Translations under genes and position numbers: made by a program
Virus record (IMG/VR): IMGVR_UViG_3300037153_000029
Location: 1-48,223 of that record
From: a virus
DNA length: 48,223 bases
Reading direction: 5' to 3' (one strand)
Shown: in pieces, positions 1,099-48,223 of the stretch
How the letters are laid out: each line of letters opens with the position of its first letter
Numbering within the stretch: the stretch's first letter is position 1
Notes under the pieces: generated by a model
Database searches by the model: none
Told to the model about the DNA's origin: nothing
The model's input: only the letters and a program-made list of their open reading frames with translations

Positions 1099-1467
1099 TT
1101 AGTCGTGCCTCCGCTGTGTGAAGTTCTGCTTGTTGATGACGGCGATGCGAGTGTCATCGCTGCCGTCCCAGTTGACGTAGAGACCGTTCTTCGCAAGCTC
1201 AGCGCACACTTCCCAGCCCTTCGACTGATCAGCGAATCTGTGCGCGATGTAGAGCGTGCCGACGAGCTTCCCGTCAACGATCGCTTCAGCATCTTGCTTG
1301 TGATAAAAGATCACGTTCTTCGGCTCGTCGCCGACTGCTGCCCAGCCACAGCTTTGGCAGCACCAGTAGTTCTGACGCGCAACAAAGCCGCGCTTGCGCA
1401 GCTCTTTGAAGGCGTCGTTGAGTCTCTCTTTGTCAGAGAGAATTTTTTCGATTCGATTCATTTTCAT
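1099..1467 (-). CDS. DUF6891-like protein
   Basis: 122 aa. Features are a helical N-terminus, a WCCQSCGW Cys motif near residues 35-42, the FYHKQDAE segment, and a C-terminal strand-rich part ending near VNWDGSDDTRIAV. These resemble the DUF6891 family of uncharacterised bacterial and phage proteins; the assignment is from memory of the motif. The start ATG follows a 17-nt A-rich leader (1470-1486) that is repeated exactly before the gene starting at 6786. Its 5' end overlaps the small gene at 1433-1606 by 35 nt in another frame. Confidence 0.75.
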   Translation of the reverse strand: MKMNRIEKILSDKERLNDAFKELRKRGFVARQNYWCCQSCGWAAVGDEPKNVIFYHKQDAEAIVDGKLVGTLYIAHRFADQSKGWEVCAELAKNGLYVNWDGSDDTRIAVINKQNFTQRRHD

Positions 1468-1606
1468 TTTTCTTTCTGTTGTTGGTTTTTCTGACGACGC
1501 AATCGTGAGCGCGCGAGGCGCCCATGATCGAGTATTTCTTGCCCGTCTCGCGCTCCCTCATCAGGAGCGCGATTCGAGCTTTGAAGTCTGCGACGGTCTC
1601 AGTCAT
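1433..1606 (-). CDS. Small basic protein, 57 aa
   Basis: The ATG at 1606 overlaps the stop of the DUF6011-like gene (ATGA), supporting translational coupling. The N-terminal half (TVADFKARIALLMRERETGK) is amphipathic helical, and the C-terminal half is Lys/Arg/Asn-rich. The last 35 nt overlap the start of the next gene and also contain its repeated leader sequence. No family recognised. Support is the coupled start and the fit to the operon; length alone would not justify the call. Confidence 0.55.
   Translation of the reverse strand: MTETVADFKARIALLMRERETGKKYSIMGASRAHDCVVRKTNNRKKNENESNRKNSL
1470..1486 (-). repeat. 17-nt repeated leader, copy 1
   Basis: The minus-strand sequence ACCAACAACAGAAAGAA ends 3 nt before an ATGAAAA start and is identical to 6791-6807 before another ATGAAAA start. 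It contains CAA repeats and the purine run AGAAAG instead of a strong Shine-Dalgarno. A translation-enhancing role is inferred. Confidence 0.6.
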
Positions 1607-45951: not shown

Positions 45952-46083
45952 ATGTTTGTTCAATGTTCAGCGACGCGCAATCTTCCACTCTGCGGTCGGG
46001 CGCGGGCACTTGCTCTCAGCATCTGCTCGGGCTGAACCGCTCGGCTGCAGAGTCGAAGGGTGCGTCATAGGCGCGAGCTGTCG

Positions 46084-47814
46084 ATGCCCATTTCGTTCGA
46101 CGATTTCAAAGCTCGACTCGCTGCTTCGAAAGCGAAGTTCGAACAGAAAAAACAAGCTGACACCGGCAGCGCTGCAGAAATTGGTGATACGGTCCCAGCG
46201 CAAGACCCGCAAGATGTTCAAGATCAACAGCCGATAGCCTCGTCACAGCCTCAGCCGCCGGCGTGGTCAGGGGCAAAACCGCGCAAGCGCGGGAAGCGCG
46301 ATCAACAGCAGCAAACGGTCGACGTGCAGCGCGAGAGTGCGCCACACTCAGTCGAAGCAGAGCAGGGCGTCATCAGCTCGATCATGCGCGACTGTCAGCG
46401 CGGCGAGCGCACCGTGATCGCTGAAGTCGCATCAAAGATCAACGAGAACTTTTTCTACGTTCCCGCGCACAAGACGATCTACGAGATGATGGTGTCGCTG
46501 TGGCGCGCGAATCGACCGATCGATCTGATCAGCTTCACTGAGTTCATGCGTCGCAAAGATATTCTCGCAGCTGTCGGCGGCGCCGCTTACGTCACCGAGC
46601 TGCACAGCTACATCGACAAGCTGACGAACTTTGTGCCGACTGCAGCTGCTGTCGACTACTATGTCGCGATTGTGCGCGAAAAATTTGCGCGTCGCGAGAT
46701 CATCGCTGATGCGACGCGACTTGTGCGCTCAGCTTATGGCGCCGACGCTGATGAATTTTCGGGCATCGTGCAGCGAGTGACGAATCGCATCGTTCACATC
46801 GGCGCCGCGACGAACGGGCAATTTCCGCAGCTGCAAGACACAGCAGACTTTTTCTCGACTGACGACCCGCCGCTGCCAAAGCTGGTCATTCATCATCTCT
46901 TACACAGAGGCAGCAAGATGCTGCTCGGCGGTAATTCGAAAGGGCGAAAAACGTGGGCGCTCATGGACTTGGCGATCGCAGTCTCGTGCGGCGTTGATTG
47001 GTGGGGATTTCACACCCAGCGCGGCGCCGTCTGCTACATCAACCTCGAACTGCAGCCAGAGTTCTTTCGTGTGCGCCAGAAGAAAATCTGCGAAGTGCGC
47101 AACATTCAGCCGGAGCGCGGCATGTTTATGGCTTGGCATCTGCGCGGGCACGCGAAGCCGATGACGCAGTTGATCGGCGATCTGCTCGGCTTTCTCAAGC
47201 AGTATCGTTTCAAGCTGATCATCATCGACCCGATCTACAAGACGCTGCCTGCTTTTCGTGGCAGCGAGAACGACAGCGCGATGATCACGCAGCTGCTGAA
47301 CGAAGTCGAGACGATCGCTGTCGAGACTGGCGCAGCTGTGTTGTTCTGCTCGCATTTCTCGAAGGGCGATCAAGCTGACAAAGAGTCGATGGACAGAGTG
47401 AGCGGCAGCGGTGCGTGGGCGCGCGACCCAGACACGCTGCTCACGATGACAGCGCACGAAGAGCAGGACTGCTTCACTGTCGAAGCGACGCTGCGCAATC
47501 TGGCGCCGATTTTTCCGCTCGTCGTCAAATGGGACTATCCGCTTTTCGTGCGCCAAGATGAGCTGTCGCCTGATCGACTGAAGCGGCGCGGTCCCAAAGC
47601 TGCATCGCCCGACAAATTGCTCGACGTGCTCAGCGAGTTCAACGGGCAAGAGCCAAAAGATGTGCTGCAGCAGATGCGCGATCAACATGGAATCACGCGA
47701 GCGACCGTCTACAGAATGAAGACAGTGCTTGAAGAACGTGGTCAGTTGAAGACCGAAGACGGATTGTGGTTGAAAGTGAAACCTGAGACAGAACAAAAAG
47801 CGACAAGCGAATGA
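46084..47814 (+). CDS. Replicative helicase-like protein: DnaB N-domain plus RepA-type ATPase
   Basis: 576 aa from ATG 46084. After a Gln/Pro-rich leader (DPQDVQDQQPIASSQPQPPA), residues 86-190 match the DnaB N-terminal domain (PHSVEAEQGVISSIMRDC). The second half is RecA-like of the RepA/AAA_25 type: a variant Walker A GGNSKGRKTWALMDLA (about 272-287), Walker B KLIIIDPIY (near 378-383), and a sensor region LFCSHFSKGD. The C-terminal 90 residues contain a winged-helix part (DQHGITRATVYRMKTVLEER). Probably unwinds the origin that follows at 47837-48050. Confidence 0.88.
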   Translation: MPISFDDFKARLAASKAKFEQKKQADTGSAAEIGDTVPAQDPQDVQDQQPIASSQPQPPAWSGAKPRKRGKRDQQQQTVDVQRESAPHSVEAEQGVISSIMRDCQRGERTVIAEVASKINENFFYVPAHKTIYEMMVSLWRANRPIDLISFTEFMRRKDILAAVGGAAYVTELHSYIDKLTNFVPTAAAVDYYVAIVREKFARREIIADATRLVRSAYGADADEFSGIVQRVTNRIVHIGAATNGQFPQLQDTADFFSTDDPPLPKLVIHHLLHRGSKMLLGGNSKGRKTWALMDLAIAVSCGVDWWGFHTQRGAVCYINLELQPEFFRVRQKKICEVRNIQPERGMFMAWHLRGHAKPMTQLIGDLLGFLKQYRFKLIIIDPIYKTLPAFRGSENDSAMITQLLNEVETIAVETGAAVLFCSHFSKGDQADKESMDRVSGSGAWARDPDTLLTMTAHEEQDCFTVEATLRNLAPIFPLVVKWDYPLFVRQDELSPDRLKRRGPKAASPDKLLDVLSEFNGQEPKDVLQQMRDQHGITRATVYRMKTVLEERGQLKTEDGLWLKVKPETEQKATSE

Positions 47815-47836
47815 CTTACATTTCACAAGCAGCAGT

Positions 47837-48050
47837 TGTCTCACGTTTCACGTTCAAAGAATGCGAGACAGTGCTCAAATCTCGACTGTCTCAGCTTGTT
47901 TTCTACTGTCTCACGTTTATTCTTGAGACGCCCTTGTTCGCTGTCTCATGTTCACACAACCCTCCGGGTTGTTTGTGTGTGAGGACACACCCAGAACATC
48001 GAGACAGCACGACAAAGGGCGCTCAAATCTGAGACAATTAACTTGAGACA
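47837..48050. repeat. Iteron-like TGAGACA array, candidate origin
   Basis: Nine copies of TGAGACA or a one-base variant: reverse-oriented at 47837, 47887, 47907, 47942; forward at 47864 (CGAGACA), 47924 (TGAGACG), 48000 (CGAGACA), 48030 and 48044. Six are exact. GCTCAAATCT also occurs twice (47873, 48021). Spacing is irregular (14-58 nt). The region is AT-richer than the flanking genes and is immediately after the helicase gene. Origin or operator array; an origin is preferred from the position. Confidence 0.65.
47956..47974 (+). terminator. Hairpin after helicase gene
   Basis: ACAACCC-TCC-GGGTTGT (47956-47972), a 7-bp perfect stem with 3-nt loop, then TTGTGTGTG, T-rich but not a pure T-tract. 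It could be a terminator or a structural part of the repeat array. Confidence 0.55.
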
Positions 48051-48223
48051 ATGAAGCACTGGGCTGAACCGTCGCAGAAAAAGCTCGAAGAGTGGGCTGA
48101 AGCTGAGCGCGAATATCTCGCGAGCGCGCCCGCAGTCGGTGCGCCCGTCATGTTCAACGGCGCGCGAATGATGTGGTTCGTCGGCGCTGAGCTGCACGTC
48201 GACGGCTACGTCTGGGCTGAGTT
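48051..48223 (+). CDS. Hypothetical protein, 5' part only
   Basis: ATG 48051, directly after the last TGAGACA repeat, open for 57 codons to the window edge. Residues: MKHWAEPSQKKLEEWAEAER, EYLASAPAVGAPVMFNGARM, MWFVGAELHVDGYVWAE. An N-terminal helix then a strand-rich part. No family recognised; the C-terminus is missing. Confidence 0.6.
   Translation, partial: MKHWAEPSQKKLEEWAEAEREYLASAPAVGAPVMFNGARMMWFVGAELHVDGYVWAE

Follow-up and report, generated by a model that had tools for sequence, protein, structure and literature searches.

A conserved iteron array behind a RepA-like phage helicase gene: a very likely replication origin, probably read by the helicase's own winged helix

The window analysed here is the whole of the IMG/VR virus record IMGVR_UViG_3300037153_000029 (48,223 bp), which may itself be a fragment. 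It carries the gene set of a contractile-tailed phage (terminase, portal, protease, major head protein, sheath and baseplate) together with RecT and exonuclease genes. The last complete gene (46084..47814, plus strand; ATG at 46084, with a GTG at 46060 as a possible alternative start) lies downstream of short unidentified genes and encodes a RepA-like replicative helicase and putative initiator. Its Pfam matches are to DnaB (N-terminal domain, 1.6e-22) and AAA_25 (RecA-fold ATPase, 1e-23), upholding the DnaB/RepA-like identity given to it in the original prediction, and Pfam together with alignment to relatives yields a layout of DnaB-type N-terminal domain, AAA_25 RecA-fold ATPase and C-terminal winged helix; all 12 members of helicase set A3 match AAA_25. 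The N-terminal domain (window 46250-46850) shares 40–42% identity with DnaB encoded on the chromosomes of soil Chthoniobacterales (L162-L165); the helicase thus looks like a host-like DnaB N-terminus fused to a RepA-like ATPase, possibly a hint at a verrucomicrobial host. The next gene (48052..48223, plus strand), of which only the start is present before the record ends, belongs to a family that varies among relatives; its start had been placed at 48051, one base too early.

An irregular array of TGAGACA iterons occupies the end of the helicase gene and the gap behind it. The original prediction, made from sequence alone, had counted six exact and three one-base variant copies in both orientations within 47837-48050, which held exactly, and the array proved larger, as a seventh exact copy (iteron 1, 47784..47790, plus) lies within the 3′ end of the helicase gene, giving ten sites in 47784-48050 (267 bp). 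The other exact copies are iterons 2 (47837..47843, minus), 4 (47887..47893, minus), 5 (47907..47913, minus), 7 (47942..47948, minus), 9 (48030..48036, plus) and 10 (48044..48050, plus), the last ending one base short of the next start codon, and the variants are iterons 3 (CGAGACA, 47864..47870, plus), 6 (TGAGACG, 47924..47930, plus) and 8 (CGAGACA, 48000..48006, plus). Iteron 1 keeps its position in relatives, and the extended iteron consensus is AACNYGAGACAR. The whole-record count that had been suggested as a check gave eight exact copies, seven of them in the array and a single one outside it (13296), a total not above chance (shuffle mean 9.7); the clustering is nevertheless extreme, with 10 copies (at most one mismatch) in 280 bp vs a maximum of 3 in any other 280-bp stretch. 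The claim that the repeat is far denser here than in its surroundings therefore held as clustering, not as a record-wide total. The array region is modestly AT-rich (46.6% GC vs 56.5% for the record) without a strong AT tract, and the suggested GC-skew test of the record revealed no clear switch at the array, a test that is uninformative because the record may be a fragment. A second repeated element, the 10-mer GCTCAAATCT, does occur twice at the array as claimed but is absent as a conserved element in relatives; it is therefore probably incidental and was dropped.

Around iterons 7 and 8 lies a cruciform-capable dyad (47930..48020) with an outer stem GCCCTTG/CAAAGGGC, an inner stem CTGTCTCATGTTC/GAACATCGAGACAG, of which iterons 7 and 8 form the left and right arms, and two tip hairpins. 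Hairpin 1 (ACAACCC-TCC-GGGTTGT, 47956..47972) keeps 7/7 pairs in four relatives with four different stems: its tip differs yet is fully paired in all four (CCC/GGG, GCC/GGC, ATC/GAT and TAC/GTA). Hairpin 2 (GTGTGT-GAGG-ACACAC, 47975..47990) was placed by DNA folding. Changes in the outer stem are likewise compensated, both sides changing together in relatives, and the DNA fold of the dyad scores z = −3.4 to −4.5 in three relatives. Because MAFFT misplaced gaps in the stem of relative L154, pairing was counted on arms anchored by hand. The hairpin noticed in the original prediction is thus confirmed, and the covariation of the dyad is shown by the sequences themselves. A hairpin centre CC(C)TWWAGG was found in 32 of 105 post-helicase regions (350 bp around and after the stop) vs 6 of 1628 control windows, and may reflect a shared structure for priming or loading; in the window, CCCTCCGGG stands in its place.

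Relatives of the phage were found via the terminase first and the helicase second. Three of them (G002, G004 and L154), with helicases 69–76% identical to that of the window, carry the same array: relative to a fixed reference point, the ten GAGAC cores all agree in position and orientation between the window, G002 and G004, while L154 has most cores in matching or slightly shifted places, has lost that of site 8 and has an additional one at −52. This conservation is a plain observation, made all the sharper by the inter-site spacers, which diverge among relatives while the sites stay. After the array, the window and G004 have a gene of one family, G002 and L154 a gene of another. A search with a 17-base origin pattern found, besides the three relatives already known, a single unrelated contig (L182). 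A recognizable copy of the helicase was found in only 4 of 20 terminase-sharing records (L003-L021); several 57-kb terminase relatives without it may have exchanged their replication module. In G005/G020, overall identity of the helicase is 57%, its C-terminal end diverges and its recognition helix differs, and directly behind its gene lies a different repeat array, of the ACTGCC/GGCAGT type with hairpins, whose repeat count did not exceed the locus controls in a simple test. The different array under a divergent C-terminal end pointed to the C-terminal domain as the part on which the repeat depends.

Across the family, arrays of this kind recur behind helicase genes. Genomes of the Verrucomicrobia (order, class and phylum) were entered through matches to host DnaB, which yielded 61 usable distinct RepA-like (AAA_25) helicases, mostly from Verrucomicrobia genomes and counting in the window's own group; about 100 related genes were compared overall. 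In the first 300 bp behind the stop codon, the most repeated 6-mer outscored all control windows from its own locus in 28/61 cases, as did the best hairpin in 27/61, so that 40/61 loci were top in repeats or hairpins, with about 2.2 expected per measure. About a third of the homologues showed no outstanding array in this simple test, and the controls, being stretches of the same loci and mostly coding, control for composition only partly. The repeat sequence is lineage-specific across the surveyed helicases. Several loci show individual features. The array lies partly or wholly in the 3′ coding tail of the helicase gene in L265 (about 1410-1490, minus strand), L316, L321 and, with one site (47784-47790), the window; read as GAG ACN codons, such an array makes the protein end rich in ET/NET repeats. 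In L191 and L202, GTCTCA and GTATC repeats alternate in a single array downstream of the helicase, the L202 helicase locus having an in-frame TGA that might indicate a decayed prophage. The C-terminal end of the L230 helicase differs, yet GAGACA occurs eight times after its stop codon.

The domain that would read the iterons is encoded at 47608..47775 (plus strand; residues about 509-564) and is predicted from AlphaFold2 and Foldseek to be a winged helix. The AlphaFold2 model of the whole helicase was poor (pLDDT 48), so only the model of the C-terminal domain was used (pLDDT about 87–90, element order H-H-H-E-E). Its nearest folds in Foldseek were the winged helices of Fur, IclR, MecI and MCM, none below E = 0.001, and its Pfam match to HTH_IclR was weak and below the cutoff. 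The third helix of the model, the predicted recognition helix (TRATVYRMK, codons at 47695..47721, plus strand), contains the columns that carry a correlation with the repeats. Among 19 non-redundant members (<60% core identity), similarity over eight recognition-helix columns correlated with similarity of repeat content from −90 to 260 around the stop (r = 0.29, p < 0.001). No such correlation was found in these 19 members for regions further from the stop, nor did repeat similarity correlate with the ATPase core (r = 0.00) or with the remainder of the winged helix (r = −0.08). Starting the region at −70, which omits most of the helix codons, left r = 0.26 (p = 0.001); with 5-mers the signal was weak.

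One helix class stands out. Helices of the form [ST][RK][AS][ST]x[YF]R were accompanied by at least three GAGAC in 9/9 members vs 0/21 others, four of the nine being the window and its close relatives; 32 of 1561 control windows reached three or more. This rule was fixed beforehand and then applied to 43 previously unseen helicases, where GAGAC repeats occurred with 4/4 rule-matching helices (one of which, L278, is a sister of L256) vs 2/39 others (Fisher p = 1.2e-4), and both exceptions, TRPTFYR and ARSSYFR, are near matches to the rule. The general correlation between helix and repeat was again present in this later set (r = 0.37, p = 0.003; 18 non-redundant members), but here the ATPase core correlates too (r = 0.28, p = 0.02), and a weak helix signal (p = 0.03) came from one region upstream, so that shared descent is not fully excluded there. 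Two further classes, neither fixed beforehand, point the same way: PRK helices go with 6–7 copies of CCGCCA vs at most 3 for others, as seen in both sets, and xxR[TV]F helices go with TGCCA (p = 0.006 and 0.005 in the two sets). The co-variation itself is an observed property of these sequences. That the repeat follows the helicase's own recognition helix, not the ATPase core, is a likely conclusion, which rests on co-variation with no binding data and is qualified by the core correlation of the later set. To this extent, and with the fold model, the earlier suggestion that the C-terminal winged helix of the helicase binds the sites is supported.

Several known systems resemble this arrangement in part. 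In SaPI Rep and SCCmec Cch2, the C-terminal domain recognizes iterons directly downstream of the protein's own gene (PMC7581432, citing Ubeda et al. 2007), and these initiator helicases are believed to be self-loading (PMC7581432). The window resembles them in having iterons directly downstream of a helicase with a predicted C-terminal winged helix, whose specificity for the iterons is inferred from co-variation alone, but their helicases are DUF927 or D5/Primase_Cterm proteins whereas that of the window is DnaB-N plus AAA_25; with a core of neither DUF927 nor D5 type, it may work like SaPI Rep without being a member of that group. The annotated origin of Streptococcus thermophilus phage Sfi21 (the PER element, 302 bp), described as acting independently (PMC6356513), overlaps the 3′ end of a helicase/primase gene and served as a positive control, showing 9 copies of AGTAAC in both orientations directly after the helicase gene. 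It differs in its Pox_D5/DUF5906 helicase, its unrelated iteron and its AT-rich core, to which the window, without a strong AT tract, offers no clear counterpart. RSF1010 RepA is likewise a RecA-fold hexameric helicase dedicated to its replicon; an AAA_25/RepA-like phage helicase has been placed in the RSF1010 RepA cluster (PMC8965321), and the criterion of an AAA_25/RepA-type ATPase is met by the window helicase. The iterons of the RSF1010 oriV are bound by a separate protein, RepC, whereas the window helicase itself carries a winged helix. Phages Javan249 (Streptococcus), EFC-1 (Enterococcus) and Vadim (Paenibacillus) also have an AAA_25 primase-helicase with a repeat-rich stretch directly after its gene (the repeat count in Vadim was not above all control windows), but with an N-terminal PriCT_2 primase-type domain in place of DnaB-N, and with other iterons. 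An origin of the lambda/TP901-1 type, lying within a separate replisome-organizer gene, was considered and rejected, as only 1 of the 10 sites is coding, at the helicase 3′ end. In the literature searched, coverage of which was partial, the arrangement was not found for RecA-fold helicases.

We consider it very likely that the array is the phage's replication origin, as originally proposed, with the proviso that origin activity is inferred and not shown by any computation. This reading is favoured because the number, orientation and spacing of the sites are exactly conserved in relatives, because lineage-specific arrays recur right after homologous helicase genes, because repeat and recognition helix co-vary, and because the annotated Sfi21 origin has the same layout; a usual criterion for an iteron origin, clustered repeats beside a helicase gene that are kept in relatives, is met. 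It is likely, though again inferred, that this origin is read by the helicase's own winged helix. The array would then act as a theta-type origin with the adjoining helicase as its own initiator. Copies of the helicase would bind the roughly 12-bp iterons (AACNYGAGACAR) via the recognition helix TRATVYR of the C-terminal winged helix, and the cruciform that lies between sites 7 and 8, together with the inverted pairs, might help to open the DNA or to present it single-stranded. The helicase ring would load at the array without a separate loader, and its DnaB-type N-terminal domain would recruit the host primase. Binding, opening, self-loading and primase recruitment are all inferences. There is no experiment and there are no replication data, and a winged-helix protein beside its own gene may possibly act on transcription.

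The latter possibility underlies a first alternative, in which the array is an operator through which a phage regulator, or the helicase itself, controls the gene or operon starting at 48052. In its favour, the last site ends immediately ahead of the start codon, and winged helices are common in repressors, the fold search giving Fur, IclR and MecI. Against it, G002 and L154 keep the array as it is but have a downstream gene of another family, which weakens the operator alternative raised in the original prediction; arrays occur family-wide downstream of helicase genes, some inside the gene's 3′ end; a search of the array region for sigma-70-like promoters found none; and ten sites and a cruciform are much for an operator. 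We therefore regard it as unlikely. A second explanation, which we also judge improbable, is that the array is an origin bound by another initiator, the helicase being recruited by protein contact in the style of lambda O/P/DnaB and its winged helix serving some other role. Many phages use a separate origin-binding protein, and short unidentified genes are present upstream of the helicase, but the iteron follows the helicase's own recognition helix and not its ATPase core, and the helix rule fixed beforehand held in new loci. A parS-like partition site, or an attachment or recombination region with arm-type sites, is very unlikely: such loci also have irregular inverted and direct repeats, but here the repeats vary with a domain of the helicase and not with a recombinase or partition protein, and the position directly behind the helicase is kept across the family. 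Also very unlikely is a structured RNA or a transcription terminator ending the helicase operon, since hairpin 1, although it covaries and scores as terminator-like with a weak T tail, would account for the hairpin only and not for ten conserved flanking sites, one of them in a coding region, while an Rfam search of the array region gave no match and terminator-like matches are near shuffle level.

Returning to the origin read by its own helicase, a bolder reading can be proposed, towards which the evidence tips only slightly. These loci may represent a large class of replicons in phages and prophages, apparently not described so far, whose RecA-fold helicase of DnaB/RepA type is its own origin-binding initiator, self-loading at an iteron-cruciform origin behind its gene, with the first residues of the recognition helix specifying the iteron by a simple code reused in distant lineages (e.g. 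SRATFYR with GAGAC, PRKTF with CCGCCA and xxRTF with TGCCA). It is a basic question how helicases of the DnaB/RepA fold come to be loaded at origins when there is no dedicated loader and initiator, and a helicase and an origin-reading domain in one protein would be a minimal system for testing it. The correlation between helix and iteron would also allow prediction in both directions, of the origin from the protein and of the protein from the origin, for many uncultured phages.
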